Source: an uncultured Microbacterium sp. (GTDB taxonomy: Bacteria > Actinomycetota > Actinomycetes > Actinomycetales > Microbacteriaceae). From it: a stretch of 64,000 nt of DNA. The position numbers and the translations under genes were made by a program. The notes under the pieces were generated by a model. That model made no database searches, was not told where the DNA came from, and saw only the letters and a program-made list of their open reading frames with translations. Shown here piece by piece: positions 1-64,000 of this stretch (positions are counted from its first letter, which is position 1; every line of letters begins with the position of its first letter). The stretch lies in the NCBI GenBank assembly GCA_913774665.1, contig CAJYHN010000010.1, positions 124,001-188,000 of the forward strand, written 5' to 3'.

Positions 1-1005
1 GCGTGCCGACACCCACGAGCCGAACCAGATGGTCAGTTCGCGCCCGAGGACGAACGCGACGATCGCGAGCGGGGCGAGGACGTTGTTCTTCAGCAGCTCG
101 ACCGACTCGCGCGGGGTGATCTCCCAGAACGGCGCGGCGAAGAGGGCTCCCAGCAGGTGCCCGGCCCACGCCACGACGCCGACGACGAGGCCCCAGACCA
201 CCCAGTGACCCCAGCGCCCGCGGTTGATCAGGGCGCCGAGGAACCAGAACCCGAAGTAGAACGCCACGGTGGGCACCCACAGGCCCCACGTGGTCAGCGC
301 CGAGAGAGCCGCTTGACCGAGGTCGGCGGTGGCGGTGCGGCCGGTCAGCAGGCCCAGGCCGAGGGTCGCGGCGAGGTAGAGCACCGCGAAGACCAGAGCG
401 GCGAGAAGACCGATCGCTCCGGCCGCGCCCCGGTTGTTGCGGGGGCGAGGGGCTTCGGGCGCCTGCACGAAGATCGGCTGCGCCCCGCCCACCGTGCGGG
501 TGGGCTCCTCGGCGGCGGGAGCGGCTGCGGCGGCCGCGGCGGCGCCGGCGGCGGGGTACGCCGTCGTGCTCGCGTCGTCGTAGCGCGAGGTCGCGGTCGT
601 GTCGTCGTGACGGACGTCGTCGCGGCGGACGTCGTCGCGAGCGGGCTCTGCGGAGGCGGCGTATGCGGCCCAGCGGGCGTCTTCGTCGTCGAGGTCGACC
701 GAGCCGGCGGATGCCGAGGAACCCTGCGGGGCGACCGGCGATGCGTCGTGCACCACGGGAGCCGCGTGCTCGCTGCGGGCCGTCGTCGAAGCGACGTCGG
801 CGCGCGCGTGCTCCTCGCGCTCGTCCCACGCGGCTTCGGCCGCCGCGGGGTCGACCGCGTCTCGGCGGGCGGCCTCGGCGTCGGCGAGACCCTCATGGGC
901 TCGGCCGACGACGTCCTGCGCTTCGTCCTTCGGCTCGACGACGGGGTCGCCGTACGAAGCCTTCGGTTCAGCGACGGGGTCGCTGCCCGACGTGTTGTCG
1001 CTCAT
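1..1005 (-). CDS. Membrane protein with long disordered N-terminus (partial, C-terminus outside window)
   Basis: The reading frame is open from an ATG at 1005 to the window edge, so at least 335 residues are visible and the C-terminus is missing. A GAGGAG ribosome binding site lies just upstream of the ATG. The first ~175 residues are rich in Asp, Glu, Ala and Arg, contain DDVRRDD/DDVRHDD-like repeats, and look disordered. They are followed by about 160 residues with at least four hydrophobic segments, beginning around AGAIGLLAALVFAVLYLAAT, and basic residues between them. I do not recognise a catalytic motif. The layout, a cytoplasmic acidic tail plus a C-terminal membrane domain, suggests an integral membrane protein of unknown function. 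It is divergent from the lipoprotein gene at 1124. Confidence 0.75.
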   Translation of the reverse strand, partial: MSDNTSGSDPVAEPKASYGDPVVEPKDEAQDVVGRAHEGLADAEAARRDAVDPAAAEAAWDEREEHARADVASTTARSEHAAPVVHDASPVAPQGSSASAGSVDLDDEDARWAAYAASAEPARDDVRRDDVRHDDTTATSRYDDASTTAYPAAGAAAAAAAAPAAEEPTRTVGGAQPIFVQAPEAPRPRNNRGAAGAIGLLAALVFAVLYLAATLGLGLLTGRTATADLGQAALSALTTWGLWVPTVAFYFGFWFLGALINRGRWGHWVVWGLVVGVVAWAGHLLGALFAAPFWEITPRESVELLKNNVLAPLAIVAFVLGRELTIWFGSWVSAR

Positions 1006-1111
1006 GGGGTCTCCTCACGCGGTGCTTGCCGCGCAAGGCTAACCCGGGCGCCCCGCGGCGACGCGCAGGCGTGCCGGGGATGTCCTTCTCGACCGTGTCG
1101 GTGGGGCGGCT

Positions 1112-1117
1112 TAGGGT
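1112..1117 (+). promoter_or_regulatory. Leaderless-type -10 box of the lipoprotein gene
   Basis: TAGGGT lies six bases before the ATG at 1124. A -35-like TCGACC sits 17 bases upstream at 1089-1094. No Shine-Dalgarno sequence fits between the -10 box and the start, so transcription probably begins at the start codon. Confidence 0.45.
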
Positions 1118-1123
1118 GTTCCC

Positions 1124-1711
1124 ATGTCCGCTCGCCTGCTCCGTCCGGCCGTCGCGGCGGCTCTCGCCGGTGCCGCCCTCCTCGCGCTGAGCGCGTGCGC
1201 CCCCGCCGCGGACGACGCCGCGCCCTCCCCCTCGGCACCGGTCGTGTCGTCCAGCCCGACCCCCATCCCGACGATCACTCAGACGGCGCCGGCCGTCCGC
1301 ATCCCCGCCGACTGCCGCTCGATGCTCTCGGCCGACGTCCTGGCTCAGCTCGGCCAGACCCCTCTGAACGACCCCTCGCTCGGAGCCTCGGGCGTGCAGT
1401 CCGACGGCTCGCTGATCTGCATCTGGCGCGACCCGGCGGCGGACACGACCGGGCTCGTCACGCACATCTCGCGCATGGATCGCGGCCCCGCACTCGACAT
1501 GCTGAACGGCCTCGTCGATACCCAGGGCTTCAGCTGCTACACCCCTGACGCCGGGACGCGCTGCGAGAAGACATGGATCAACCCGACCTACCCCGTCAAC
1601 GACGGTCGGACGCTCTACTGGCGCGACGGTGTGTTGATCGACACGCAGTACTCGAACCTCGCCCCCACGGGATACACCGGCAGCATCATCGCCTCCGTCT
1701 TCGGCGGCTGA
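1124..1711 (+). CDS. Secreted lipoprotein with four conserved cysteines
   Basis: The 195-residue product starts with a lipoprotein signal: a basic N-terminus, a hydrophobic stretch, and lipobox LSAC with the lipidated Cys at 25. A Pro/Ser/Thr-rich linker follows to about residue 58. The mature domain has Cys64 (DCR), Cys99 (CIWR), Cys138 (GFSC) and Cys147 (RCE), probably two disulfides, and ends in a GY..SIIAS.FG pattern. The same cysteine pattern recurs in the convergent gene at 1733-2332, so the two are paralogues. It is anchored outside the membrane. Its function is unknown. Transcription looks leaderless. Confidence 0.8.
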   Translation: MSARLLRPAVAAALAGAALLALSACAPAADDAAPSPSAPVVSSSPTPIPTITQTAPAVRIPADCRSMLSADVLAQLGQTPLNDPSLGASGVQSDGSLICIWRDPAADTTGLVTHISRMDRGPALDMLNGLVDTQGFSCYTPDAGTRCEKTWINPTYPVNDGRTLYWRDGVLIDTQYSNLAPTGYTGSIIASVFGG

Positions 1712-1732
1712 ACCCGCGAGCGGGCCGTCTCG

Positions 1733-2332
1733 TCACTCGCCGAAGAAGGCGTGGGATGCCACGATCGCGGCGTATCCGTCGGGCATCCACCCGGAGAGCG
1801 ACGACGACACCCATCGGTCGGCGCGCAGATCGTGGACCTCGAGAAGCTCGCCCGAGGCGCGTTCGCAGTGCGTGGTGTCGGCCGCGACCGAGCACGCGAA
1901 ACCCTGTGCGGCGAGGGTGGTCGAGACAGCTGCAGCCCCCTCCGTCGTCACCGTCGAAACGGTCGTCTCGATCGAACGCCCGGCTTCGCCCCGCCAGTGG
2001 CAGGTGATGACGACCGTCGGAGAGGCGGCGGCGACCGCCTCGGGCGTCGACGCCGGCGCGGTGCGCCGTTGGGAGAGCAAGGCCTGCGGAGACCACACCA
2101 GGGACGACCACAGCGGCTGCGAGTACAGGTGGCGGCAGTCCGAAGCCGGCGCGGGAGGGGTCGACTCGGCCGCCGCATGACGACCCGTGGCGGCCCTCAG
2201 CGTGTCGCCCACGAAGCCGACGGCCATCGGCACGCCGGGGGTGGCGATGACCACGAGGGCGGCGACGGCGGCCGCGCACAGCAGACCCGCCGGCCAAGCC
2301 AGCCACAAGCTGCGTCCCCCGATGCGGGCCAT
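1733..2332 (-). CDS. Membrane-anchored exported protein, paralogue of the 1124 lipoprotein
   Basis: The 199-residue product starts at ATG 2332, preceded by GGAGG seven bases upstream. This is preferred over the longer frame to 2464, whose extra residues are low-complexity Arg/Pro. A single hydrophobic segment at about residues 10-30 acts as an uncleaved anchor instead of a lipobox. The outer domain carries Cys66 (DCR), Cys111 (CHWR), Cys147 (GFAC) and Cys156 (HCE), then a GY..IVASH.FG ending. These match the four cysteines and the ending of the neighbouring lipoprotein. The two stop codons face each other 21 bases apart. Function is unknown. Confidence 0.75.
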   Translation of the reverse strand: MARIGGRSLWLAWPAGLLCAAAVAALVVIATPGVPMAVGFVGDTLRAATGRHAAAESTPPAPASDCRHLYSQPLWSSLVWSPQALLSQRRTAPASTPEAVAAASPTVVITCHWRGEAGRSIETTVSTVTTEGAAAVSTTLAAQGFACSVAADTTHCERASGELLEVHDLRADRWVSSSLSGWMPDGYAAIVASHAFFGE

Positions 2333-2403
2333 GCGTTCCTCCACCACAACGGTAGGCGCACCGAGGTGCCTCCCCCGCGCCTCGACACGCCGCGAGCGCG
2401 ACG

Positions 2404-2431
2404 AAGGCCCCCGGCGTGAGCCGGGGGCCTT
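2404..2431 (-). terminator. Perfect 12-bp hairpin downstream of rpoC
   Basis: AAGGCCCCCGGC (2404-2415) and GCCGGGGGCCTT (2420-2431) form a perfect 12-bp stem with a 4-base loop. No T-run follows on the minus strand. It is the last of three hairpins between rpoC and the next minus-strand gene. Confidence 0.5.
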
Positions 2432-2438
2432 CGGGGAT

Positions 2439-2466
2439 CGGGATGCCGCGCCGGGGCGTGGCATCC
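2439..2466. repeat. GGGATGCC/GGCATCCC inverted repeat
   Basis: GGGATGCC and GGCATCCC are separated by 12 bases in the rpoC 3' region. They form an 8-bp stem and are two copies, in opposite orientation, of the heptamer that is over-represented across the window. Confidence 0.45.
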
Positions 2467-2478
2467 CTTCCGTCGACT

Positions 2479-2508
2479 CCGGGAGGACGGGCGGACCCGC
2501 CCTCCCGG
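2479..2508 (-). terminator. Proximal rpoBC terminator hairpin
   Basis: CCGGGAGG (2479-2486) pairs with CCTCCCGG (2501-2508). An inner CGGG/CCCG stem is separated by one mismatch and closes a CGGA loop. It begins seven bases after the rpoC stop, the expected place for operon termination, although no U-tract is present. Confidence 0.55.
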
Positions 2509-2515
2509 ACCTCGA

Positions 2516-6391
<3,876 letters not shown>

Positions 6392-6447
6392 TGGTTCTCC
6401 TGTGTCGGAATTCTCTGAAATCTGAGCTGGGTCGCTGAGCTGGAAGC

Positions 6448-9945
<3,498 letters not shown>

Positions 9946-24037: not shown

Positions 24038-25105
24038 GTGACCACCCTCCACGATTCCTCGGTGCGCGGTTTCGCCTCCGACAACTACTCCGGCATCCAC
24101 CCCGATGTCCTCGCCGCGATCTCCGCCGCCAACGAAGGCCACCAGGTCGCCTACGGCGAAGACGTCTACACCTCCCGCCTCCAGGAGCTGTTCGTCTCGC
24201 TTCTCGGCGACGGCGTCGAGGCCTACCCGGTCTTCAACGGCACCGGCGCCAACGTGGTCGGTCTGCAGTCGATGCTCCCCCGGTGGGGCGCCGTGATCTC
24301 GGCATCCACCGCCCACATCAACGTGGACGAAGGCGGCGCTCCCGAGCGCGTCGGCGGCATCAAGCTGCTGACCGTCCCGACCGACGATGGCAAGCTGACC
24401 CCCGAGCTCGTCGACCGCGAAGCCTGGGGCTGGGGAGACGAGCACCGCGCGCAGCCGCTGGTCGTCTCGATCACGCAGTCGACCGAACTCGGCACCCTCT
24501 ACACGGTCGACGAGATCCGCGAGCTCGCCGCCCACGCGCACGGCCACGGCATGCGCCTGCACATGGACGGCGCGCGCATCTCGAACGCCGCCGCGGCCCT
24601 CGACGTCCCGCTGCGGGCCTTCACGCGCGACGCCGGTGTCGACGTGCTGAGCTTCGGCGGCACGAAGAACGGTGCGATGATCGGCGAGGCCATCGTCGTG
24701 CTCGACCCCGAGGCCTCCACCGGACTCACGTACCTGCGCAAGCTCGACATGCAGCTGTCGAGCAAGATGCGGTTCGTGTCGGCTCAGCTGGTCGCCCTGC
24801 TCGAGAACGACCTGTGGCTGACGAACGCGCGCCACTCCAACGCGATGGCGCAGCGTCTGCGCCAGGGCATCGAGGCGGGTCTCTCCGACGGCTCGATCCA
24901 GGGCGTCGAGTTCACGCAGCCGACGCAGGCGAACGGTGTCTTCGCGATCCTGCCCGCCGGGGTCGCCGAGCGCCTGCGCCAGAGCTTCCGCTTCTACGAC
25001 TGGGACGAGCTGCGCCGCGAGGTGCGCTGGATGTGCTCGTTCGACACGACCGAGGCCGACATCGACGCCTTCGTCGCGGCGATCGCGCGCGAGACGACGG
25101 CCTGA
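24038..25105 (+). CDS. ltaE: Low-specificity L-threonine aldolase (PLP-dependent)
   Basis: The 355-residue protein belongs to the beta-eliminating lyase/threonine aldolase family, which splits threonine or allo-threonine to glycine and acetaldehyde. It shows the FASDNYSGIHPDVLAAI start, FNGTGANVV, the HMDGARISNAAAAL cofactor-binding block and the Schiff-base lysine in LSFGGTKNGAM near residue 210. The start is GTG 24038, six bases downstream of TACGCT, a leaderless arrangement. It is divergent from the SNF2 gene and ends at a strong hairpin shared with the M3 peptidase gene. Confidence 0.9.
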   Translation: MTTLHDSSVRGFASDNYSGIHPDVLAAISAANEGHQVAYGEDVYTSRLQELFVSLLGDGVEAYPVFNGTGANVVGLQSMLPRWGAVISASTAHINVDEGGAPERVGGIKLLTVPTDDGKLTPELVDREAWGWGDEHRAQPLVVSITQSTELGTLYTVDEIRELAAHAHGHGMRLHMDGARISNAAAALDVPLRAFTRDAGVDVLSFGGTKNGAMIGEAIVVLDPEASTGLTYLRKLDMQLSSKMRFVSAQLVALLENDLWLTNARHSNAMAQRLRQGIEAGLSDGSIQGVEFTQPTQANGVFAILPAGVAERLRQSFRFYDWDELRREVRWMCSFDTTEADIDAFVAAIARETTA

Positions 25106-25135: not shown

Positions 25136-25172
25136 GAGGGCCGCGGCATCCGGACGGGATGCCGCGGCCCTC
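25136..25172. terminator. Bidirectional terminator, perfect 16-bp stem
   Basis: GAGGGCCGCGGCATCC (25136-25151) and its exact complement (25157-25172) enclose a 5-base loop. It lies between the convergent ltaE and M3 peptidase genes. Each arm contains the over-represented GGCATCC/GGATGCC heptamer. Confidence 0.75.
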
Positions 25173-25177: not shown

Positions 25178-27100
25178 TCACGCCCCGGCGAGCCAGGCCC
25201 GGTACGCGTCGAAAGTCGACTCGCGACCGAGGAACGACTGGACGAGATCGCGGGCGTCTCGGGTGCCGCCCGGCTCGAGGATCTCGCGCCGGTACCGCGT
25301 GGCGGTGTCGAGGTCGAACAGGTCGTCGCCGAAGGCCGACAACAGGTCGCGGGCGATCACGAGGCTCCACTGGTACGTGTAGTAGCAGGCGCCGTAGCCG
25401 GTCAGGTGCCCGAAACCCGCGTACGAGTGCGAGCCGTCGAGCGGGGTGATCGGGCTGGCCGCGCGGTAATAGCCGTCGACGGCGCTGGCCAGATCGGCCG
25501 GCCGGTCGACGTGCAGGCGGTACGAGGTCGTGGCGTGGCCGAGCTGCCGCGTGACCTCGAGGGCCCGGCCGAAGGCGTCGGCCGTGCGCATGCGCGCGAC
25601 CAGATCGGCCGGGATCGGCTCACCCTGGTCGTTCACGGCGAAGGCGGCGAGCGCCTCGGCATCCCACGCCCACTCCTCGAGCAACTGGCTGGGGGCCTCG
25701 ACGAAGTCCCACTCCGTGGCCACGCCCGTCCACCGCGCCCACTTCTGGTGGCCGCCGAGGATGTCGTGCACGAGGTGACCGAACTCGTGGAAGAACGTGA
25801 CCACCTCGTCGTGCTCGAGCAGGCCGCGGGAGAAGTTGCACAGCAGCACCGACTCGGGCAGCGACCGACCCGTGATGCCCGGAGCGAGGCCGAAGCACGC
25901 GGCGTGGTTGTACTTGCCGTCGCGCGGGTGCAGGTCGAGGTGGATGCGCCCCAGACGCTCGTCGCCGCGCACGACGTCGTAGGTGCGCACGTCGTCGTGC
26001 CAGGAGGGCGCGTCGACGGGGACGTATTCCACATCGAGCAGACGCGCGGTGGTCGCGAGGACCCCCTCGAGCACGCGGTCGAAGCGGAAGTACGAGCGCA
26101 CGAGCTGCGAGTCGACGTCGTACTCCTCGCGCTTGAGGGCGCTGAGGACGTACCAGAAGTCGGCGATCGTGACGGCGTCGGCGGTGGGCTCGTCTCGGCG
26201 GAGACGCTGGAGCACTCGTTCCTCTTCGACGGCGGCGGCGGGAGCCACGGCATCCGCGACTTTCTCGAGGAAGGTCTTCACCGCGGCCGACGAACCGATC
26301 ATGCGGGTCTCGGTCTCGTAGTCGGCCCAGTCTCCGTACCCGAGCAGCGCCGCGCGCTCGGCACGAACGGCGAGGAGCTCGGCGAGAACGGGCTCGTTCA
26401 CGGGCCACGCGAGGTCGTTGTATGCCCCCATGAGCTCGTGGCGCACCGCACGGTCGCGCGCGTACTCACGCACAGGCATGAGGTCGGTGTACTCGGTCGT
26501 GAGCGTCACCATTCCGTCGCCGTCGACCGGGTGCGCGGCGAGGAAGTCGTCGGGGAGTCCGTCGAGCGACGACGCGGGCATCCGGATCTCGCGGCGCCCC
26601 TCGCGGATGTTGCGCGAGAAAGTCAGCGAGAGCTCGGTGTCGCGGTCGGTCAGCTCGCGCACGCGCTCGCGGTCGGCGTCGTCGAGGTCGACGCCGCCGC
26701 GACGGAAGTCGCGCTGGATCTGGGCGAGCAGACGCTGCTCGTCGGCATCGAGTCCGTCGGCGGTGGCGTCGGCGAAGACGCCCCACAGCGCGCGGTCGAG
26801 AAGTCGGCGCGACTGCACCGCGTCGACCGCCTGCGCCTGCTTCTCGGCGGCGTCTCGCACCTCTCCGTCGGGGTGCGATTCACTCACCAGGTGCGAGGGC
26901 GCGGCGGCCTCGCCGAGGGCGATCTCGGCCTCGTTCCACAGCGCGAGACGCTCGCTCAGCGAAAGGTCGGACTCGACGGTGAGCCGGGCGTCGATCTCGG
27001 CCACGCGCGCGAGGCGCTCGGTCGGACGGTCTTCGGCGAACGCCCGCCAGCCGTCGAGGTCGCGCGGGAGGGTCAGGGGTTCCAGGGGAGGATGCGGCAT
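25178..27100 (-). CDS. M3 family metallopeptidase (oligopeptidase/Dcp-like)
   Basis: The 640-residue protein is a cytoplasmic M3 peptidase. The zinc motif FFHEFGHLVHDI lies near residue 436, the third-ligand glutamate in EAPSQLLEEWAWD, and the substrate-binding GHLTGYGACYYTYQWS block near residue 570. No signal peptide is present. It would degrade short peptides released by proteases. ATG 27100 is supported by TAGGGT exactly six bases upstream with no Shine-Dalgarno sequence. It is convergent with ltaE and shares its terminator. Confidence 0.92.
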   Translation of the reverse strand: MPHPPLEPLTLPRDLDGWRAFAEDRPTERLARVAEIDARLTVESDLSLSERLALWNEAEIALGEAAAPSHLVSESHPDGEVRDAAEKQAQAVDAVQSRRLLDRALWGVFADATADGLDADEQRLLAQIQRDFRRGGVDLDDADRERVRELTDRDTELSLTFSRNIREGRREIRMPASSLDGLPDDFLAAHPVDGDGMVTLTTEYTDLMPVREYARDRAVRHELMGAYNDLAWPVNEPVLAELLAVRAERAALLGYGDWADYETETRMIGSSAAVKTFLEKVADAVAPAAAVEEERVLQRLRRDEPTADAVTIADFWYVLSALKREEYDVDSQLVRSYFRFDRVLEGVLATTARLLDVEYVPVDAPSWHDDVRTYDVVRGDERLGRIHLDLHPRDGKYNHAACFGLAPGITGRSLPESVLLCNFSRGLLEHDEVVTFFHEFGHLVHDILGGHQKWARWTGVATEWDFVEAPSQLLEEWAWDAEALAAFAVNDQGEPIPADLVARMRTADAFGRALEVTRQLGHATTSYRLHVDRPADLASAVDGYYRAASPITPLDGSHSYAGFGHLTGYGACYYTYQWSLVIARDLLSAFGDDLFDLDTATRYRREILEPGGTRDARDLVQSFLGRESTFDAYRAWLAGA

Positions 27101-54920: not shown

Positions 54921-54963
54921 GGCTTCGACGCTAACGAACACGACTACGAGGCCGCTGGGAGCG

Positions 54964-55555: not shown

Positions 55556-55558
55556 CGC

Positions 55559-55876
55559 TCAGCCCTCTTCGACGAGGGCGTCCTCGCTGGGCTCGGGCGT
55601 GATCGCCAAACCGTTCGGGCCCGAGGCCGCGAGCATGAGGTCTTCGACCCAGACGCGGTTGATGCGAGGCTGGCGGCTGCCGTAGAAGTGGAACTGGATC
55701 GGCACCGAGGGGTGCATCCAGAAACTGCGGCGACCGCTGCCGTCACCGACTTCGACGTCGAACATGAACGACTCGGAGCGCCGAAGCTTGTTCATCACGA
55801 CGATGCGCAAGTGCGCAAGAGTGCGGTCGTCGATGTCGACCGCATTGGCAACGGTGTCGTAGATGAATCTGCCCAT
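55559..55876 (-). CDS. DUF7882-type small protein, copy 2 (divergent)
   Basis: The 105-residue paralogue reads MGRFIYD, IDDRTLAHLRIVVMNKLRRSESF and SFWMHPSVPIQFHFYG. It keeps the framework of copies 1 and 3 but is only about 40% identical by eye. It runs in the opposite direction, with its stop three bases from that of copy 1. TAGGCT lies seven bases before ATG 55876. Confidence 0.82.
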   Translation of the reverse strand: MGRFIYDTVANAVDIDDRTLAHLRIVVMNKLRRSESFMFDVEVGDGSGRRSFWMHPSVPIQFHFYGSRQPRINRVWVEDLMLAASGPNGLAITPEPSEDALVEEG

Positions 55877-55987
55877 GAGAGCGAGCCTATCCGAGGAACG
55901 CACAGTGAGCCGCTTTCCGGGATGCCACGTCGCGTCACGCGAATCAACCCCGCCGGGGGGCCTGACGGGCCCGACTAACGTACCCGT

Positions 55988-56299
55988 GTGGGAACGCTTT
56001 ACTACGGCGACGTCGCGACGCCGATCGAGATCGAGGATCGCGCTCTGGCGCATGTCAAGGTGGTCATCGCGACCAAGCTCCGCCGCGGCGAGAGCTTCAC
56101 CCTGTCGTGGACGCACGGTCCCCACCAAGAGGTGGGACGCAGCACCGTGTGGCTGCACCCCTCGATTCCGCTGCGGTTCGTCTTCGACGAACCCGAGCCC
56201 GCGCTGCTCAGTCGCGCGTGGATCGAGGCGCTGGCCACCTCGGCGAACTCGTCGGGTGGCCTGCTGCTGGTGGACGAACCAGAACCCCGCGGCTCCTGA
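55988..56299 (+). CDS. DUF7882-type small protein, copy 3
   Basis: The 103-residue paralogue reads MGTLYYG, IEDRALAHVKVVIATKLRRGESF and STVWLHPSIPLRFVF, and by eye is about 70% identical to copy 1. The start is GTG 55988 with TAACGT six bases upstream. It is divergent from copy 2 and convergent with the gene at 56301. Confidence 0.82.
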   Translation: MGTLYYGDVATPIEIEDRALAHVKVVIATKLRRGESFTLSWTHGPHQEVGRSTVWLHPSIPLRFVFDEPEPALLSRAWIEALATSANSSGGLLLVDEPEPRGS

Positions 56300-56300
56300 G

Positions 56301-56555
56301 TCAGTCCCGAGGGACGCCCAGGATCTCGCGAGCGCCCTCTTCGACGGCGGTGGGCACCACCAGGGGGCGACCTGCCGAGAAGGCCTCCCATTCGCGCAGC
56401 ACGACGGCTTCGATGCGCGCGGGGTCCTCGAGCGGATAGTCGGCCCTCAGGCGGGCGATGACGGCGCGGAAAGAGGCGACCTCGATTCCGTCCACCTGGT
56501 GGACGAGATCGGCGCCGATCGCGGGGGAAACCGCGTCGTGTGCGCTTTCGTCCAT
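56301..56555 (-). CDS. Small helical protein (three-helix-bundle type)
   Basis: The 84-residue protein (EVASFRAVIARLRADYPLEDPARIEAVVLREWEAF and so on) resembles actinobacterial three-helix-bundle dimerisation-domain proteins. Each helix is amphipathic. Three in-frame ATGs (56555, 56564, 56576) are possible starts. The first before DESAHDAV is listed. It lies 74 bases before the MarR gene stop. Function is unknown. Confidence 0.6.
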   Translation of the reverse strand: MDESAHDAVSPAIGADLVHQVDGIEVASFRAVIARLRADYPLEDPARIEAVVLREWEAFSAGRPLVVPTAVEEGAREILGVPRD

Positions 56556-56629
56556 GGCCCCCATGCTCTCACGCATGACCTGTGTCCTCGGCCGTGACGA
56601 CGGAGAGCGCGGGCGAGCTCGGCTCGCGC

Positions 56630-57154
56630 TCAGTGCGCTGCATCGGCATCGACCGGGTGCGGGTCCACCTGGTCGACCGCATCTTGGAGTCGACCGAGGC
56701 ACGCGATCACCGCAGCGCTCTCTTCGGGGGTCATGTCGACGACCGCGGCCATCATGCGCGCGTGCATCGCCCCGAGGGTCGCGCGCACTTCTTCGTCGCT
56801 CGCGGCCGTGGCCACGATGTGGATACTCCGGCGATCGGTCGGGTGCGGTACACGCGTGACGTGACCGGTCTTCTCGAGGCGGTCCACGATCGCGGTCGTG
56901 GACGCCGTGGACACCCCGAGGTAGCGGGTGAGCTCACTCGGGGAGACCTGACGCTGCTGTCCCGCCGCTTTGATGAGATAGCGCAACACCAGCAGCTCGT
57001 TCTCGCCCATCGACATCGACTCGCGTGTGCGGCGACGCATGGCTACCTCGGCAGCGCGGTACACGCGGAAGGCTTGGAGGACTTCCACCGCCCGACGGCG
57101 GCGGTCCTCTTCGCTCGCGCCGTACCAGTAGCGCGACTCGGACCCTGTTTCCAC
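56630..57154 (-). CDS. MarR-family transcriptional regulator (1)
   Basis: The 174-residue protein has a MarR winged helix: MGENELLVLRYLIKAAGQ, then SPSELTRYLGVSTASTTAIVDRLEKTGHVTRVPHPTDRRSIHIV (wing with the conserved D-R). Dimerisation helices lie at both ends. The start is GTG 57154 with TAGGAT six bases upstream. It is divergent from a second MarR gene, with two palindromes in the 135 bases between them, which suggests cross- or auto-repression. Confidence 0.87.
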   Translation of the reverse strand: METGSESRYWYGASEEDRRRRAVEVLQAFRVYRAAEVAMRRRTRESMSMGENELLVLRYLIKAAGQQRQVSPSELTRYLGVSTASTTAIVDRLEKTGHVTRVPHPTDRRSIHIVATAASDEEVRATLGAMHARMMAAVVDMTPEESAAVIACLGRLQDAVDQVDPHPVDADAAH

Positions 57155-57221
57155 CAGGGCATCCTATGTCAGGCTCCGCGTCCAGCCCCCTGCCGATGCG
57201 CGGGAAGGGCAGGTAACATCT

Positions 57222-57254
57222 AAGTAGAACGGCTACCTACTTGATCGGAATCAA
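57222..57254. promoter_or_regulatory. Two adjoining MarR-type palindromes
   Basis: AAGTAG (57222-57227) pairs with CTACTT (57237-57242). TTGAT (57241-57245) pairs with ATCAA (57250-57254), forming TTGAT-N4-ATCAA. The sites overlap by two bases. A TAACAT -10 box for the plus-strand gene (57214-57219) lies just before them. Confidence 0.55.
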
Positions 57255-57289
57255 AGACACTAGCCCAACGAGGAAAACGAGGAGGAGAG

Positions 57290-57778
57290 ATGAAAGACGC
57301 GGCTTCCGCCGACGATGTCGTCAAAGCCCTCAACGACCTCACGGACTCGGGGGTGGCCTCCGAGCGCGCCGCCCTTCACTCCCTGGGCATCGGTCCGAAC
57401 GACGCGAAGGTCCTGCGCTTCCTCCTCCAGCGCTCCGCCGACGACGAACCGGTCACCCCTCGCATCCTCGCCTCGATGCTCAGCATCTCGTCGGCGGCCA
57501 CGACGGCGCTGATCGACCGCCTCGCCGAGGCGGGGTGGGTGGAACGAGAGCCCTACCCGGGTGATCGGCGCTCGATCGTCGTCCGCGAGACGATCCCCGC
57601 CGACTCGCCCGCCCGACGCGTGCTGTCGGTCCGCAACGCGTCGGCCGTCGCGGCAGCCGGCCGACTCGGGCCCGCGGAGCGGCGGATCGTCGCCGACTTC
57701 CTCGACGACATCGCTCGCGGCGAGAAGCAGGACATCGACGACATGTCGGCAGACGCAGAGGCGCCCCGCGCGTCCTGA
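57290..57778 (+). CDS. MarR-family transcriptional regulator (2)
   Basis: The 162-residue protein has a winged helix with NDAKVLRFLLQR, then TPRILASMLSISSAATTALIDRLAEAGWVEREPYPGDRRSIVV, and C-terminal dimerisation helices. It starts at ATG 57290 with a strong GAGGAGGAGAG site, unlike its leaderless-looking divergent neighbour. The wing sequences of the two regulators are similar, so they may share operators. It ends in an 11-bp bidirectional hairpin. Confidence 0.87.
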   Translation: MKDAASADDVVKALNDLTDSGVASERAALHSLGIGPNDAKVLRFLLQRSADDEPVTPRILASMLSISSAATTALIDRLAEAGWVEREPYPGDRRSIVVRETIPADSPARRVLSVRNASAVAAAGRLGPAERRIVADFLDDIARGEKQDIDDMSADAEAPRAS

Positions 57779-57800
57779 CGAGCAGGAGCCGGGGCGCCTC
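57758..57800. terminator. Bidirectional hairpin between MarR (2) and DUF3072 genes
   Basis: GAGGCGCCCCG (57758-57768, inside the end of the MarR gene) and CGGGGCGCCTC (57790-57800) form a perfect 11-bp stem across a 21-base loop. Confidence 0.5.
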
Positions 57801-57805
57801 GAGCG

Positions 57806-58045
57806 TCACTCGGTGGAGCGACCGGTCTCGTTCTGCAGGCGGTCGATCTGCTCGGACGCCTCCGCCTTCGTCAGATCGGCGGGGATCTCCTCTCCGGCTT
57901 CACGGGCGAGGGTGTCGAGGTAGCTGCGCTGCGGGGCGGTCATCGGCTCGTCACCGGTCACCCAGTCGGACGGGTCCTTCTCGGCGGGGTTGTCGCCCTC
58001 GCGGACGGCACCCAGGGTCTCTTCTTCGCGGGAGGTATCGCTCAT
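57806..58045 (-). CDS. DUF3072 family protein
   Basis: The 79-residue acidic protein reads DWVTGDEPMTAPQRSYLDTLAREAGEEIPADLTKAEASEQIDRLQ, the DUF3072 signature. It is a small helical cytoplasmic protein of unknown function. TAGCCT lies six bases before ATG 58045, the leaderless arrangement seen at many genes here. Confidence 0.85.
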   Translation of the reverse strand: MSDTSREEETLGAVREGDNPAEKDPSDWVTGDEPMTAPQRSYLDTLAREAGEEIPADLTKAEASEQIDRLQNETGRSTE

Positions 58046-58085
58046 GCAGGAAGGCTAGGCGGGACCGACGACACCGGGACCGGGA

Positions 58086-58130
58086 TTGACATGACACCCA
58101 GCCGGGTAGGGCATCCTGGTCGGATGCCCG
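58086..58130 (+). promoter_or_regulatory. Promoter region and GGCATCC/GGATGCC hairpin over the hydrolase start
   Basis: A perfect TTGACA lies at 58086-58091. Downstream, GGGCATCC (58110-58117) and GGATGCCC (58122-58129) form an 8-bp stem with a 4-5 base loop that buries the ATG at 58124. The exact -10 box is unclear. Confidence 0.35.
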
Positions 58131-59089
58131 AGGACTCCCGACCCGCCGACGTCGACGTCGACACGCTCCGCCGCGGGCCCTCGCAGACGCGGGTGACGCG
58201 CGTCTCCACGGGGTCGGGCACCGGTCGCCCGTTCGTCCTCGTCGCCGGTATCGGCGTCGCATCGACCTACTTCGAGTACCTCGCGCCGCTGCTCGCCGAG
58301 AAGGGCGAGGTCTACGCCCTGGATCTTCCGGGGTTCGGCGGGGTCCCGGCATCCGGGGAATCCCCCACCGCCGCGTACTTCGCCGACCAGGTCGAGGGAG
58401 TGCTCGACCACTACGGTCTCGAGAATCCGGTGCTCATCGGACACTCCATGGGAACGCAGGTGGTCACGGAGGTCCTGGCTCGGCGTACCGAGCTCTCGCA
58501 CGCGGTGCTGGTGAGCCCCGTCGTCGACGAAGCCGAGTCCTCCGCGATCGTCCAGGGCGTGCGCTTCGTCCAGTCGACGGTGCGGGAGTCCCTGCACATC
58601 GCCCTCCTCGCGGTCTCGGCGTACCTCCTGTGCGGCTTCCTCTACTTCTTCGAGGCTCTGCCCCATATGTTGCGCTACCGCATCTCCGACCGGATCGGTG
58701 AGGGCCGGGCGACTCTGCTGCTCATCCGCGGCGAGTTCGACCGCCCGTCACCGCGCCGCCTGCACTCCCGCCTCGTCGACCGCGCGCATCGTGCCCGGCG
58801 GTGGGAGATCGAGGGAGCCGCGCACTGCGTCGTGAACAGCCACGCCGTCGGAGTGGCGCATCTCGCCGTCCGGCACGCCGATGACGAGCTCCCCGCGAAA
58901 GGGCGGATGCCGGCGGCCGAGGCCGCCGTACCCCCCGCCTCGCACTCCGATCTGCGGATGGTGCTCGGCGCCATGCTGAGTCGCCTGGCGGAGTGGGTCA
59001 GCGCGGCCCGCCACGACGAGGACGGCGTCGAGCGGGCGAAGGCGCGTCATGCCCGCGTCCTCTGGGACGCCTACCGTCCGCGCCGCTGA
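58124..59089 (+). CDS. Alpha/beta hydrolase
   Basis: The 321-residue protein has an alpha/beta-hydrolase core: FVLVAGIGVASTYFEYLAP, YALDLPGFGG, the nucleophile Ser in LIGHSMGTQVV and HVVNSHAVG-like His near the C-terminus. A hydrophobic cap (SAYLLCGFLYFFEALPHML) may bind the membrane or a lipid. The last ~80 residues form a helical extension with no known motif. Start ATG 58124 is preferred over ATG 58091 because the latter would add a short unlikely extension. Confidence 0.85.
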   Translation: MPEDSRPADVDVDTLRRGPSQTRVTRVSTGSGTGRPFVLVAGIGVASTYFEYLAPLLAEKGEVYALDLPGFGGVPASGESPTAAYFADQVEGVLDHYGLENPVLIGHSMGTQVVTEVLARRTELSHAVLVSPVVDEAESSAIVQGVRFVQSTVRESLHIALLAVSAYLLCGFLYFFEALPHMLRYRISDRIGEGRATLLLIRGEFDRPSPRRLHSRLVDRAHRARRWEIEGAAHCVVNSHAVGVAHLAVRHADDELPAKGRMPAAEAAVPPASHSDLRMVLGAMLSRLAEWVSAARHDEDGVERAKARHARVLWDAYRPRR

Positions 59090-59249
59090 GCGGCGCTCAC
59101 CCGGGGAGCCGTCCGGGCCACCCCGCGACGGCGGCGAGGCCGACGCGGAGCAGGACGCGGTGCCGACGCGCCCGCGCGCGTCCCGCTCCCGACCGTTCTC
59201 GGATCCGGATGCCGACACCGCGGCGCAGCGAGGGGGATCCGGGCCCGGA

Positions 59250-60494
59250 TCAGCCCACGCGTCCGCTCACGGCATCCAGAGCGCGGTCGAGAGCGACGGC
59301 TGTCGCCCGTCGCGCAGCCGCGGGGACAGCGGCGAGGAACCCGCCGACGAAGGTGTCCCCCAGCCCGATCGTGGTGGGCTGCACGGTGTCGACGACGTAG
59401 GCCGCAACCCCGACCGCTCCGCTGCGCTGCCGCGCGGCTTCGACGACCGCCGCACCGCCCGCGTGACGGGGCGACCGAGCGGTGGCCTCGAGGTCGGCGG
59501 CGGTGCAGGCGTCGCCGAGTCGGTAACGCGTCGCCGCCGTGCGCACGGCGCTCTCGAGCCCCGCCGCGTGCCGGGCCGCCGAAGGGCCGACCGCGATCGC
59601 CCAGAACGTCGTGTGCACGACCAGCGCCCGCGCCGGAATGAGCTCGTGCACCTCGGCGAGGGCGGCGATGACGTCGTCGGGCGAGAGCAGGTCGACGGGC
59701 CGCCCCAGGTACTCCTGCAGTTCGTCCTCGTTCATCCCGTACACGTCGATGCGCTCGAGGAGCCGCTCCCGCACCCGGGCGGAGAGCTCGCGGTGGTAGA
59801 AGCCCGCGTCCTCGTAGTAGACGAGGGCGTCGGCGGGCAGGCGTCTCATCGCCGTGACGAGATCGTCGAGCCGAGCCTCGAGCAGGTCGGCATCCTGCAT
59901 CGTGTTGAACCCCGAGACGAGGAACGCCGCGGCCCCCTCGAGAGCGTCGCCCAGGCCGCAGGCGATGGCCATCTCGCGGTTGGGGGCGTCGTTCGCGAAG
60001 ATCAGGCGATTCGACGCCGGCGCCGTCACCGCCCCGTCGACGAGGCGCACCGTGGTGCCCACCGGGTACTGCACGATGAGGTGCGGGTCGAGGGTGTCGC
60101 GCGTCGCGGACGAGACGATGCTCATCGAGGCCGGAAGCAGGCGCCGCACAGTGTCGTCGATGCTCACGAGGTGCTGCACGGTGGGCACACCGATGCGGTC
60201 GAGGGCGATGCCCGCCCGCACCCCGGTCCCGCCGAGGGTGACGCTCTTGTCGAAGTGCGCCGCGAAGGTCTCGACGATCTCCGACGACAGCACGAAGCGC
60301 TCGCCTCCCCCGCCCGTGGCGAGGAAGGCGAGCACCGTGACGACGAGGGCGCGCTCGTCGATGATCGGCGTCGTGGTGGTCAAGTCGTCGAGACGGATGC
60401 CGTGCTGCGCAGCCAGGGCCGTGAGCACCTCGGCATCCCACCGGATCTCGTAGTCGACGGTGCCGCCGAGCCCGAGGACGAGGTCTCCCGCCAT
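59250..60494 (-). CDS. ADP-dependent phosphofructokinase/glucokinase family sugar kinase
   Basis: The 414-residue protein belongs to the ADP-PFK/GK branch of the ribokinase fold. It has a GLGGTVDYEI start, the sugar-binding LGGTGVRAGIALDRIG, ASNRLIFANDAPN, GFNTMQD, the metal/phosphate motif NEDE in YGMNEDELQEYLG, HTTFWAIAVG and the catalytic Asp in TIGLGDTFVGGF near residue 380. This family uses ADP rather than ATP in archaea. ATG 60494 is listed. GTG 60506 is possible. It ends the operon after the class II aldolase. Confidence 0.85.
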   Translation of the reverse strand: MAGDLVLGLGGTVDYEIRWDAEVLTALAAQHGIRLDDLTTTTPIIDERALVVTVLAFLATGGGGERFVLSSEIVETFAAHFDKSVTLGGTGVRAGIALDRIGVPTVQHLVSIDDTVRRLLPASMSIVSSATRDTLDPHLIVQYPVGTTVRLVDGAVTAPASNRLIFANDAPNREMAIACGLGDALEGAAAFLVSGFNTMQDADLLEARLDDLVTAMRRLPADALVYYEDAGFYHRELSARVRERLLERIDVYGMNEDELQEYLGRPVDLLSPDDVIAALAEVHELIPARALVVHTTFWAIAVGPSAARHAAGLESAVRTAATRYRLGDACTAADLEATARSPRHAGGAAVVEAARQRSGAVGVAAYVVDTVQPTTIGLGDTFVGGFLAAVPAAARRATAVALDRALDAVSGRVG

Positions 60495-60513
60495 GACGTC
60501 GATCACCGTCCGA

Positions 60514-61377
60514 TCAGTAGAGGTCGGCCTTGCCGGCGGCGCCGAACAGGTCGATCTTCTCAGCGGCCGTGACCTTCATCGCGGCGATGCACGCGGGCTG
60601 GATGGCGTTGGGCTCGCGCAGACGGCGATCGGTGCCGAGCACCTCGCGCATGCGGTCGTGGTACGCCACCTTGATGTCGCTGGAGATGTTGATCTTGTTG
60701 ATGCCCAGGGACACGGCGCGGGCGAGCTCGGCGTCGGGGTTGCTCGACCCGCCGTGCAGCACGAGGGGGATGCCGACGGCCGCCTTGATCTGCTCGAGCA
60801 GGTCGTGGCGCAGCTCGGGGTTCTTCTCGGCCGGGTAGAGCCCGTGCGAGGTGCCGATGGCGATGGCGAGGCTGTCGACCCCGGTCTGCTCGACGAAGCG
60901 CACCGCGTCGTCGACGTTGGTGTAGATGATCTCGGCCGCGCCCGACTCGCCGTAGCTGTCGTTCGCGCCGATCGTGCCGAGCTCCCCCTCGACCTGCACG
61001 CCGACCGCGTGGGCGGCCTCGACGACCTTGCGGGTGAGCGCGACGTTCTGCTCGAACGGCTCCAGCGAGGCGTCGATCATGACCGAGGTGAAACCGGCCT
61101 TGATGGCGGTGATGATCTGCTCGTAGGTGCCGCCGTGGTCCCAGTGGATCGCGACGGGGACGCTCGAGCGGTGGGCACGGGCGTGCATCGCCGGGATCAG
61201 GTCGGTGGTGATGTGCGAGACCTCGTCGGGGTGGATCGCGATGATGACCGGAGCGTTCTTCTCCTCGCTGATGTCCATGATCCCGGTGAACATCGCCCAG
61301 TCGCTGATGTTGAAGGCCGGGATGGCGAAGCTGTGGGCGTTGGCGACGTCGAGGATGGACTTGCCGGTGTAAAGCAC
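60514..61377 (-). CDS. Class II ketose-bisphosphate aldolase
   Basis: The 287-residue class II aldolase resembles FbaA/GatY/KbaY. Zinc ligands lie in IHWDHGG (Asp80, His81 numbering), GTSHGLY and LHGGSSN, with NISSDIKVAY as the phosphate-binding loop. It cleaves a ketose bisphosphate into two trioses. The exact sugar (fructose or tagatose series) is not readable by eye. AAGGAG precedes GTG 61377. It sits between an ABC importer and an ADP-dependent-type kinase. Confidence 0.92.
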   Translation of the reverse strand: MLYTGKSILDVANAHSFAIPAFNISDWAMFTGIMDISEEKNAPVIIAIHPDEVSHITTDLIPAMHARAHRSSVPVAIHWDHGGTYEQIITAIKAGFTSVMIDASLEPFEQNVALTRKVVEAAHAVGVQVEGELGTIGANDSYGESGAAEIIYTNVDDAVRFVEQTGVDSLAIAIGTSHGLYPAEKNPELRHDLLEQIKAAVGIPLVLHGGSSNPDAELARAVSLGINKINISSDIKVAYHDRMREVLGTDRRLREPNAIQPACIAAMKVTAAEKIDLFGAAGKADLY

Positions 61378-61412
61378 GGATGACTCCTTGTTCGGGGTTG
61401 GGTAGGCGGCGG

Positions 61413-62312
61413 TCAGCTCTTCACCGAGCCGGCCGTGAGGCCGCTGATGAAGAAGCGTTGGAAGAAGAGGAAGAGCACCAGCACCGGGATCGAGCCGAGG
61501 ATGCTCATCGCCATGATCTGGTTCCACTCGTACGAGTGCTGGCCCATGAGCAATTGGATGCCGATGGGCACGGTGCGCATGTCGATGGTCCGCGTGAGGG
61601 TCAGAGCGAACAGGAACTCGTTCCACGCGATCATGAACGTGTAGATGCCCACCGAGACGATGCCCGGGATCGAGATCGGGACGAGCACGCGCCACAGCGC
61701 CGTGAAGGAGCCGGCGCCGTCGACGCGGACCGCCTCGTCGAGTTCCTTGGGGAGGGTGTTGAAGTACCCGGTCATCATGATGATCGCGTAGGGCAGCGTG
61801 AACACCATGTACGTGAAGATCAGGCCCGGGTAGGTGTTGTACAGCCCGAGCCCGACCATCAGGCCGAAGTACGGGATGAGCAGCGTGATCGGGGGCACCG
61901 CCTGGACGCTGACGATGATGACGTTGACGATGCGCTTGCCGCGGAACTCGAACCGGCTGAAGGCGTAGGCGGCCTGGATGGCCACGAGCAGCGTCAGGAT
62001 CGTGACCGCTCCCGCGACGACGTAGCTGTTGATGAAGAAGCGCACCGTCTCGGGGTTGGTGAAGATCGAGACGTACGCGTCGAACGAGAAGGTGTCGGTG
62101 ATCAGGCGCGGCGGGAGCTCGAAGATCTGCGTGTTCGATTTGAACGAGCTCGACAGCATCCACAGCACGGGACCCGCGGCGAAGACCGCTCCGATCAGCA
62201 GGCCGATCAGCACGCCGACCTGGGCGAGCCGGCGACGCGTGCGGCTGTTCGTCGTGCGCCGGGGCGTGGGTGCTGCCGCGGCGCGCGGCCGCGCGGGGGT
62301 GGTCAGGGCCAT
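61413..62312 (-). CDS. Carbohydrate ABC transporter permease (MalG type)
   Basis: The 299-residue protein has a basic, Pro-rich N-terminus, six membrane segments and the EAA loop DEAVRVDGAGSFTALWRVLVPI. It is the second permease of a CUT1-type importer. ATG 62312 lies one base after the stop of the first permease. No ATPase gene is present in the operon, so a shared MsiK-like ATPase is probably used, as in many actinobacteria. Confidence 0.92.
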   Translation of the reverse strand: MALTTPARPRAAAAPTPRRTTNSRTRRRLAQVGVLIGLLIGAVFAAGPVLWMLSSSFKSNTQIFELPPRLITDTFSFDAYVSIFTNPETVRFFINSYVVAGAVTILTLLVAIQAAYAFSRFEFRGKRIVNVIIVSVQAVPPITLLIPYFGLMVGLGLYNTYPGLIFTYMVFTLPYAIIMMTGYFNTLPKELDEAVRVDGAGSFTALWRVLVPISIPGIVSVGIYTFMIAWNEFLFALTLTRTIDMRTVPIGIQLLMGQHSYEWNQIMAMSILGSIPVLVLFLFFQRFFISGLTAGSVKS

Positions 62313-62313
62313 G

Positions 62314-63243
62314 TCAGTCCCTCGCCTTCTGGTGGCGGACGTAGAGCACCGCGATGATCATCGACATCGCCAGGACCAACACCGCGGAGGTGGAGGCCAT
62401 CGAGAAGTCGTATTTCGCGAACGCGAGCTTGTAGGTGAACGTGCTGAGCATCTCGGTGACGTCGATCGGACCGCCGCCCGTGGTCAGCCAGATGAGGGCG
62501 AACTGCTGGGAGGTCCAGATGAGGTCGAGCAGCACGAGGCTGACGATGATCGGGCGCAGCTGCGGGACGGTGACGTTCCAGAACCGTTGGACGGGGCTCG
62601 CGCCGTCGACGGTGGCGGCCTCGTACAGATCGCTCGGGATGCCCTGGAGACCCGCGAGCAGGCTCACCATGAAGAAGGGGTAACCGGCCCAGATGTTGAT
62701 GAAGGTGACGGTGCCGAGAGCGAGTTGCGGCGAGGCGAGCCACTCGATGTTCGTGTTCAGCAGGAAGTTGACGATGCCGTTGGGGGCGAGCAGCATGCGC
62801 CACAGCACCGCGATCACGGCCACCGTGAACAGCCACGGCAGCACGTACAGCCCCCGGAAGATCGCCCGGGGGACGGCGCCGATGAGCCGACTGTTCAGCA
62901 GGAGGGCGAAGGAGAGCCCGAGCACGAGGTGCGCCGCGACGCTCGTCAGCGTGAAGAAGAGGGTGTTGCCGGTGGCCTTCCAGAACCCCGGGTCGGTGAG
63001 GATGGCGACGTAGTTGTCGATCCCCACCAGGTCGGGGCTCTTGTTGAGGATCACGTTGTCCTGGAACGAGTACCCGATCACCATGACGATCGGGACGATC
63101 ATCAGGACGAAGAGAAGGATGAGGGTCGGCGAGAGGAAGACGTATGCCTCGCCGGCTTTGCGGAGCTGCCGGGTGCGGCGCGAGGCGGGTCGTCCGGTGA
63201 CGATCAGCTCGGTATCGGGGGGCGTGAGGGTGCGCATGGTCAT
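62314..63243 (-). CDS. Carbohydrate ABC transporter permease (MalF type)
   Basis: The 309-residue protein has six membrane segments, beginning YVFLSPTLILLFVLMIVPIVMVI, and the EAA loop EAATVDGASPVQRFWNVTVPQL. It is the first permease of the CUT1 importer. ATG 63243 is chosen. ATG 63237 is also possible. It follows the binding protein across a 16-bp hairpin. Confidence 0.92.
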   Translation of the reverse strand: MTMRTLTPPDTELIVTGRPASRRTRQLRKAGEAYVFLSPTLILLFVLMIVPIVMVIGYSFQDNVILNKSPDLVGIDNYVAILTDPGFWKATGNTLFFTLTSVAAHLVLGLSFALLLNSRLIGAVPRAIFRGLYVLPWLFTVAVIAVLWRMLLAPNGIVNFLLNTNIEWLASPQLALGTVTFINIWAGYPFFMVSLLAGLQGIPSDLYEAATVDGASPVQRFWNVTVPQLRPIIVSLVLLDLIWTSQQFALIWLTTGGGPIDVTEMLSTFTYKLAFAKYDFSMASTSAVLVLAMSMIIAVLYVRHQKARD

Positions 63244-63263
63244 GAGGTGCGGCTTTCGCTGAG

Positions 63264-63303
63264 CGGGATGCCGCACCGCGAGCGGTGGCGGTGCGGCATC
63301 CCG
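63264..63303. terminator. Intra-operon hairpin, perfect 16-bp stem
   Basis: CGGGATGCCGCACCGC (63264-63279) and its exact complement (63288-63303) have an 8-base loop. It lies between the binding-protein stop and the first permease, the usual place for a partial terminator that keeps binding protein above permease. Each arm contains the recurrent GGATGCC heptamer. Confidence 0.6.
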
Positions 63304-63316
63304 GTTCGGGGTCGGA

Positions 63317-64000
63317 TCAGAACTCCGACGTCCATTCGTCCTGCGTCTTCTTGAGGGCGTCGCTCATCGACTCCTGGCCGTCGAGCGCCGACTGGAACTC
63401 CGTGCCGAACTGGCGCATCAGTTCTTCCGCGACGGGCAGACCCGTGAACTCGTTCGCCGGGTAGCCCTTCTTGTAGATGTCGAAGGCCGTCTTGAACAAC
63501 GCGTCGTCTTCAACGAAGGTCGGCACGCTCTCGGTATTGCCCGGGAAGGCCTTGGCCATCGTGGACAGCTCGCTGTTGACGTCCTTGCCCATCAGGAACT
63601 GCACCAGTTTGAAGGCGGCATCCTTGTGCTCGGAGTTCTCGGCGACGCCGATGCCCCACGAGGCGTAGGGGATCCCGCGCTCGCCGGTGAAGCCGTCCTT
63701 CGCGGGGATCGCCGAGATCGAGAACTTCAGATCCGGGTTGGACTGGCGGATGAGGTTGATGTGCGCGAGCGAGTCGATCATCATTCCGACGCGACCGTTG
63801 GTGAACTCCTCGACCTTGTCCTGTTCCTTCATGGTGAAGGAACCCGGGGCGATGACCTTGTCGTTCCAGAGCTGCTGGATGAAGTCGGTGGCGGAGGACA
63901 CGTCGCTGTTGGTCAGATCGGGCTGGCCGTCTTTGAGCATCGAGCCGCCCGAGGCCCAGACCCACGACATGACGTCGTTCTGCACGCCGTTGGGCGCTTC
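63317..64000 (-). CDS. Sugar ABC transporter substrate-binding protein (C-terminal part)
   Basis: Only 227 residues of the C-terminal lobe lie inside the window. The frame runs off the right edge. Family landmarks are GRVGMMIDSLAHINLI, the GERGIPYASWGIGVAENSEHKDAAFKLVQFLM block and FGTEFQSALDGQES near the end, typical of CUT1 (MalE-like) binding proteins. It is upstream of both permeases and is the most promoter-proximal gene visible in the operon. Confidence 0.9.
   Translation of the reverse strand, partial: EAPNGVQNDVMSWVWASGGSMLKDGQPDLTNSDVSSATDFIQQLWNDKVIAPGSFTMKEQDKVEEFTNGRVGMMIDSLAHINLIRQSNPDLKFSISAIPAKDGFTGERGIPYASWGIGVAENSEHKDAAFKLVQFLMGKDVNSELSTMAKAFPGNTESVPTFVEDDALFKTAFDIYKKGYPANEFTGLPVAEELMRQFGTEFQSALDGQESMSDALKKTQDEWTSEF

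Follow-up and report, generated by a model that had tools for sequence, protein, structure and literature searches.

The window analysed here is the whole 64,000-nucleotide stretch of DNA from an uncultured Microbacterium sp. (G000:C10:124001-188000), and the genome to which it belongs (G000, 3.58 Mb) was placed in the M. testaceum clade of Microbacterium by its named relatives. The subject is the heptamer GGATGCC (GGCATCC on the opposite strand; hereafter, the word), which is dispersed over the window. GGATGCC starts 49 times, at positions 709, 1754, 2441, 4864, 6630, 10442, 11519, 12110, 12819, 14673, 16706, 17072, 18424, 19224, 25157, 27249, 27563, 27810, 28242, 29355, 31407, 35669, 35922, 36184, 40498, 42304, 42898, 43027, 43590, 44430, 44797, 48401, 50029, 50323, 50565, 50913, 51463, 52901, 53262, 54629, 55920, 58122, 58905, 59207, 60395, 60768, 61556, 62637, and 63266. 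GGCATCC starts 52 times, at positions 1782, 2460, 10278, 11142, 11601, 12446, 13459, 15241, 16310, 16526, 17757, 18773, 19808, 23302, 24092, 24301, 25145, 25658, 26249, 26577, 28673, 28914, 30399, 31628, 32218, 36022, 37406, 38217, 38509, 39204, 40689, 41309, 43732, 44710, 45308, 45668, 46180, 46472, 47741, 47993, 48524, 49430, 53859, 55181, 57158, 58110, 58348, 59271, 59889, 60432, 63295, and 63617. The total of 101 copies is slightly above that of the original prediction, in which about 47 and 51 had been counted by reading. The word is preceded by C in 52 and followed by G in 78 of the 101 copies, which gives about CGGATGCCG, and the flanks of the window copies show no strong extension further out than roughly one base either way. 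The rpoC-rpoB block (2516..9945, minus strand; gene names after the original prediction) holds two copies only (4864 and 6630), as had been stated, where about 10 are expected at the mean coding density of the window (P(<=2) = 0.002). Scans of the window with Rfam (gathering thresholds) and for tRNA genes gave no matches.

The over-representation turned out to exceed what had been claimed; GGATGCC/GGCATCC occurs 5,487 times genome-wide in G000. That the excess is not due to amino-acid choice alone was borne out by a codon-preserving shuffle, which retains each protein and its codons but not the codon pairs, applied to home-made gene calls: 77 copies were seen in the window genes against 26.1 +- 3.6 (z = 14.2), and no other of the 4,163 heptamers deviated as far as GGATGCC did (300 shuffles; 50 called genes, 56 kb). 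With the same shuffle, the samples of the own genome gave 533 copies against 160 expected (361 kb of coding sequence, z = 39, rank 1 among heptamers). Previously listed inverted pairs are contained in 13 of the 20 own-genome stretches; the unselected set, namely the window plus seven other stretches, gave 213 against 67.8 +- 6.4 (165 kb). The relative G410 had 523 copies against 154 (z = 45, again rank 1). Two of the G410 stretches (L101 and L104) hold the fewest copies (12 and 13; mean, 33) and may be acquired islands; L101 ties for the lowest GC. Among the heptamers of equal composition, a comparison that had been proposed as a check, GGATGCC was second of 164 in the window (median, 15), after CGTCGAG with 124 copies; the number of CGTCGAG is explained by its sub-words (113 expected), whereas that of GGATGCC is not (69 expected). 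The maximum-order Markov ranking discriminates poorly, since copies of the word raise the counts of the very sub-words from which its expectation is derived. The statement that the copies use the avoided codons GAT (Asp) and GCA (Ala) holds for part of them: of the 78 copies called coding, 25 are read as G-GAT-GCC and 18 as G-GCA-TCC, but 26 are read as GGC-ATC-C, 7 as GG-ATG-CC, and 2 as GG-CAT-CC. The orientation is balanced, as had been noticed for the window (49/52), also genome-wide in G000 (2,725/2,762) and in the 20 pooled stretches of G410 (314/343; first half 127/138, second half 187/205, with the halves standing in for replichores). Single 20-kb stretches vary in this respect (11/23 and 9/3).

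The word was found at about 0.7-1.9 copies/kb in 22 of the 22 congeners examined, and at about 0.16-0.41 copies/kb in 15 other families of the order (one genome each). Its density across the family is patchy (229 genomes, 85 genera), and among 187 congeners the nine-mer ranges from 76 copies (G401; reversed-word control, 72) up to 2,988. On a single-gene tree with 80 rows, 11 have a density under 0.8 copies/kb (two Leifsonia and one Demequina among them), and their distribution requires seven changes; therefore, the word has been lost or replaced repeatedly. On the tree, the pyridoxal phosphate (PLP)-aldolase gene of Demequina oxidasica (L039) nests among the Microbacterium genes, which suggests interfamily transfer.

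The decisive new finding, absent from the original prediction, is that the word exists in dialects. CGGATGCCG is borne by many Microbacterium and by Agromyces (GGATGCC, 142 vs 40.5 expected). In G380 (400 kb sampled), GGATGCC is at background and CGGAACCA is hugely over-represented (197 vs 15.6); G347 likewise has 13 copies of CGGAACCA vs 1.0. We hand-picked 25 word-poor congeners (<= about 0.125 nine-mers/kb), of which 21 were sampled (excluding G273, G278, G417, and G423) in 20-40 kb each, a size at which a weak dialect can escape. CGGATCC was found in nine of these 21, CGGAACC in two, and GGATGCTG in two, and no clear word appeared in the samples of the other eight. CGGATCC reached 120 vs 22.4 in the M. 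azadirachtae group; in G424, it was weak in the sample (28 vs 9.7) yet had 4,470 copies genome-wide. The candidates for further dialects, each with few copies (14-19), are GGATGCTG in G285 and G366 (19 vs 3.1 and 14 vs 3.6), GGATGCGG in L024 (19 vs 4.7), and CGGGATGC in Leifsonia (16 vs 4.6). For the other genera of the family, one stretch each was analysed for 17 of 20 (G041, G087, and G101 were too short; G109 had 11 kb): the leading word was CGGATCC in G071, CGGATGCG in G063, and CGGATGCC in G094, with weaker signals in G057 (GGGATGC and GGATGCG), and no related word led in the remaining 13 stretches. Genome-wide counts in 40 genomes gave 4,239-9,980 copies of CGGATCC in 10 of the 25 GGATGCC-poor congeners and 5,752 in G071; the other 29 genomes had 169-1,898, including all 13 GGATGCC-rich ones (789-1,625). 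The CGGATCC-rich and GGATGCC-rich sets are thus disjoint among the 40 genomes counted. Three dialects (GGATGCC, CGGATCC, and CGGAACC) are well supported, and three further ones are tentative.

In phages, with the dialects of the hosts lying outside the comparison, GGATGCC is near the codon-shuffle expectation, both in Min1 (13 vs 11.6) and in three M. foliorum phages (20 kb each; 16 vs 13.8). CGGATCC is scarce in the samples of the three M. foliorum phages (L240-L242; 3 vs 12.4) and in excess in Min1 (L089; 18 vs 7.7).

Copies of the word are also retained between relatives. In the M. testaceum clade, 24 of 30 aligned occurrences of the rare codon GAT inside the word were retained, as against 100 of 331 elsewhere, and for the rare GCA the figures were 29 of 35 inside and 8 of 104 elsewhere; these cases pool eight relatives and hence are non-independent. 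When eight sequences of this clade were compared in every ordered pair, the word was retained in 804 of 1,428 cases (0.56), compared with 0.37 for words of the same composition. Retention above that of same-composition heptamers was observed in six of six groups (0.51-0.75 vs 0.33-0.52), and GGATGCC ranks 10th in conservation of the 366 heptamers with two A/T letters. The word and the main dialects are almost certainly real and actively maintained.

Close copies of the word tend to face each other. All four hairpins of the original prediction (given there at 2439, 25136, 58110, and 63264) are real inverted pairs, and three of them clearly fold more stably than shuffled sequences do, the exception being the weak one at 58110. 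The pair at 2441..2466 has a 12-base loop and lies past the 3' end of the gene 2516-6391 (minus strand; rpoC of the original prediction), with a folding energy of -27.1 kcal/mol (z = -3.13). The pair at 25145..25163, with a 5-base loop in a 17-bp stem (-41.7 kcal/mol, z = -7.51), lies between the convergent genes 24038-25105 (plus strand) and 25178-27100 (minus strand) and is a candidate two-way terminator. The weak hairpin at 58110..58128 (5-base loop; -21.3 kcal/mol, z = -1.65) is intergenic by one gene caller and touches a gene start at 58124 by another. The pair at 63266..63301 has a 22-base spacer in a 16-bp stem (-37.3 kcal/mol, z = -5.99) and lies between tandem minus-strand genes. Two looser inverted pairs are present in the window (1754/1782 and 60395/60432). 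In the window and the seven unselected own stretches, 21 inverted vs 3 direct GGATGCC pairs were found at distances of <=30 bases; close pairs were inverted in 57 and direct in 29 cases in 51 other named Microbacterium loci, and in 31 and 18 cases in G410. In the unselected own set, the density of GGATGCC was 2.92/kb (nine copies) in the gaps between convergent genes vs 1.31/kb in coding sequence. The other dialect words are more strongly crowded in such gaps: CGGATCC has 6.99 vs 2.45/kb in the M. azadirachtae group, and CGGAACC has 6.16 vs 1.34/kb in G380. Nine direct CGGAACC pairs lie between convergent genes in the G380 stretches (L112-L131) and are perhaps local arrays.

Genes for the uptake of DNA were looked for in the same genomes. 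ComEC was found in 187 of 187 congeners, so the loss of ComEC was rejected as the cause of the loss of the word. In the own genome, comEA (SLBB and helix-hairpin-helix) lies upstream of comEC, and the same arrangement was recognised by eye in each of the five other genomes whose upstream protein was inspected. A Flp/Tad-like cluster adjoins topA in the own genome in the order tadA-tadBC-flp-tadE-tadG; it comprises tadA beside topA (T2SSE, E = 1.5e-41), a TadB/C-like gene (T2SSF, E = 1.7e-10), a 77-amino-acid pilin that carries G/AATAEY (DUF4244, E = 1.1e-20), and TadE-like and TadG-like genes (E = 0.0024 and 0.016). TadE (PF07811) was detected at E <= 0.001 in 172 of the 187 congeners, a threshold that the TadE-like gene of the own genome misses, and a T2SSE ATPase was found in 40 of the 40 genomes examined. 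Eight of the 40 (G405, G329, G014, G338, G410, G381, G340, and G015) have a further T2SSE match that is very strong (E = 1e-134 or better), which suggests a separate type IV pilus system with a distribution that does not follow the word. In Micrococcus luteus, Flp pili are required for transformation, and two clusters are both needed (PMC4322843).

We suggest, at slightly under an even chance, that GGATGCC, best written CGGATGCCG, is the dialect in which this clade writes a dispersed self-recognition word whose action resembles that of a DNA uptake sequence (DUS). This reading is proposed because the word is dominant in its genome, strand-neutral, mostly coding, in excess as inverted pairs, at background level in four phage samples, and replaced by other words in relatives, a picture close to that published for Neisseriaceae (PMC3630211). 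The dialect pattern is predicted by the uptake sequences of Neisseriaceae and Pasteurellaceae, and not by restriction, Chi, segregation, or mutation alone. We class the word as uptake-sequence-like and not as a DUS proper; the definition of a DUS has preferential uptake and a receptor at its functional core, which for the present word are putative, and three other features gave a mixed picture, namely the terminator-like inverted pairs at gene ends, the conservation of copies between relatives, and the link between the word and the competence genes. In natural transformation of this kind, a receptor at the cell surface, for which ComEA or a minor pilin of the Flp/Tad filament might serve, would prefer DNA that bears the word, ComEC would import it, and homologous recombination would swap the local allele. 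Word-bearing alleles would then be copied back more often than others and would spread to permissive sites, with no function needed for any single copy, and head-to-head copies behind genes may double as hairpin terminators. If the specificity of the receptor shifted, the lineage would gradually rewrite its word.

Several results weigh against this reading. One word does not fully shut out the others: G410, rich in GGATGCC, is also enriched in GGATGCTG (101 vs 34.6) and CGGGATGC (82 vs 34.3), and G000 has 60 copies of CGGGATGC vs 33.1. Because of this excess in G410 beside GGATGCC, and of the few copies behind the tentative dialects, the GGATGC words grade into each other. Close CGGAACC pairs in G380 are mostly direct (31, vs 18 inverted), and the crowding of GGATGCC between convergent genes is slight in G410 (1.90 vs 1.71/kb) and in the 51 named loci (2.21 vs 1.84/kb in coding sequence). 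Among all 888 heptamers with >=300 pair-sites, GGATGCC ranks only 49th in conservation. The CGGATCC copies of the M. azadirachtae group are conserved no better than controls (0.41 vs 0.39), a result suggestive of rapid turnover or a recent expansion and at odds with purifying selection on single copies. As for the machinery, the TadE and TadG matches of the own genome fall under the cut-offs of Pfam, and only one strong T2SSE match is present there, whereas M. luteus requires two tad clusters. ComEC and T2SSE are also present in the eight congeners without a word found in 20-40 kb; therefore, the machinery genes do not predict the word.

The original prediction had offered a methylase or restriction site, and one part of this idea failed: at E <= 0.001, no D12 methylase of the FokI/SfaNI type was detected in 48 of the 56 genomes tested, the own genome among them, and one was present in eight, and PF00145 enzymes are scattered (12 of 24 genomes). 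In the other part of the idea, the word would be recognised by a core DNA methyltransferase that drifts and marks the chromosome (for the cell cycle, the strand choice in repair, or self-marking), with selection keeping the targets frequent and the dialects tracking the specificity of the enzyme; we regard this as unlikely, though the most probable of the rival explanations. An RsrI/YhdJ/CcrM-like N6_N4 methyltransferase was indeed found in 24 of 24 Microbacterium genomes covering the three dialects and none (own copy L214, G000:C7:20307-21119), its tree has long stems to the dialect groups, and the dialect words contain an adenine in GGA. The identity of this enzyme is higher within dialects than between them (0.72 vs 0.65), though that of ComEC is likewise (0.57 vs 0.48). 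The same enzyme is, however, present in the wordless G322, G329, G384, and G392, and those of the two CGGATCC groups are less alike mutually (0.61-0.64) than either is to that of GGATGCC-rich G410 (0.68-0.76), and about as alike as they are to that of G000 (0.64-0.67), so that no shared change of specificity is visible. At equal ComEC distance, the enzymes of the CGGATCC groups are no more alike than pairs of different dialects (11 genomes with both genes; G347 and G322 are missing, ComEC not being called). Moreover, relatives of the enzyme such as RsrI and YhdJ act on palindromes, and GGATGCC is non-palindromic. The methyltransferase and uptake readings have a combined form: in Campylobacter jejuni, methylated words are recognised at uptake, as is known in outline.

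Recognition of the word by a protein of recombination or replication-repair, Chi-like or other, with selection keeping the word frequent, agrees with the genome-wide spread in coding DNA, with the conservation, and with the fact that such words differ between species. Chi and the FtsK-orienting polar sequences (KOPS) are, however, polar to replication, and a polarity of either kind was rejected, since the strands are equal in the window, in the genome, and in both halves of G410. Such a protein would not be expected to produce more inverted than direct pairs, and whole-word switches inside one genus would require a fast change of a core enzyme; this explanation is rather improbable. Binding by a nucleoid-associated or regulatory protein, also mentioned in the original prediction, is somewhat less probable still. 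Words that are dispersed, strand-neutral, species-specific, and related in sequence would suit it, but weak selection for binding can hardly account for conservation in coding sequence or for a switch of dialect at thousands of positions. A mutational relic, in which methylated GGACGCC decays to GGATGCC, had been raised as well and is contradicted by several results, leaving it very improbable indeed. GGACGCC is scarce in the window genes (23 vs 51), and T4C occurs most often among the single-step variants of the word (13 of 53), as such decay would have it. However, GGACGCC is depleted to the same degree (0.52-0.54 of expectation) in a genome that lacks GGATGCC, namely G380, with 0.52; 15 different kinds occur among the 53 single-step variants at sites of the word; the word retains its rare codons; and CGGATCC and CGGAACC cannot arise by the C-to-T route.

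To our knowledge, uptake words come from Neisseriaceae and Pasteurellaceae only, and the literature surveyed (titles and openings of abstracts among the matches listed, subscription papers lying outside) contained neither GGATGCC nor any uptake word of Actinomycetota. The uptake signal sequence (USS) of Pasteurellaceae carries a longer AT-rich extension, unlike the Microbacterium word with its flanks of about one base. HIP1 of cyanobacteria, a palindromic octamer tied to GATC-type methylation, is highly iterated in coding DNA, as is GGATGCC; GGATGCC is non-palindromic, although the CGGATCC dialect contains the palindrome GGATCC. The likeness to USS lies in the dispersal, the lack of a general orientation bias, and the inverted repeat forms (PMC2346458), and in the presence of subtypes between species (PMC3630211). 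Eight DUS dialects with a shared CTG core, and with inverted pairs at terminators, are described for Neisseriaceae (PMC3630211). The present case resembles them in that each genome is dominated by a single word with copies in the thousands, coding copies are common, inverted pairs occur, related species have different words that share a core, and some relatives are wordless (PMC3630211). It differs in that the bearers are Gram-positive Actinomycetota and the words are of 7-9 bp and mostly start with CGGA, instead of 10-12 bp with CTG. The crowding at gene ends is modest for GGATGCC, and in Neisseriaceae ComP is the receptor, while an uptake role is proposed here from genome sequences. The transformation system of M. 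luteus belongs to the same phylum and shares the order tadA-tadBC-flp-tadE-tadG and a 77-amino-acid pilin; it has two clusters, unlike the own genome, and the term 'uptake sequence' is absent from the main text of that paper (PMC4322843).

It is conceivable, at odds that we put a little lower than for the uptake-sequence-like reading above, that the Gram-positive Actinomycetota evolved a language of uptake words independently of the two Gram-negative families. Its words would mostly start with CGGA, its dialects in Microbacteriaceae would number no fewer than three and probably six, and its reader would be Flp/Tad- or ComEA-based; such a language would restrict gene exchange among species and be directly legible in genome sequences. 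If true, this would be a third, independent case of uptake words, with several dialects in one genus, and sequence-selective sex would have evolved repeatedly with different envelopes and pilus types. It would predict which Microbacterium exchange DNA, offer a handle for transforming them, and make the co-evolution of receptor and word testable over many sequenced species. Even with another protein as the reader, the replacement of thousands of copies within one genus is a strong and testable puzzle.

As a minor observation, heptamers with GGAC/GTCC were strongly depleted after codon shuffling in the window genes, namely GCGGACC, AGGTCCG, CGTCCAG, and GGACGCC.

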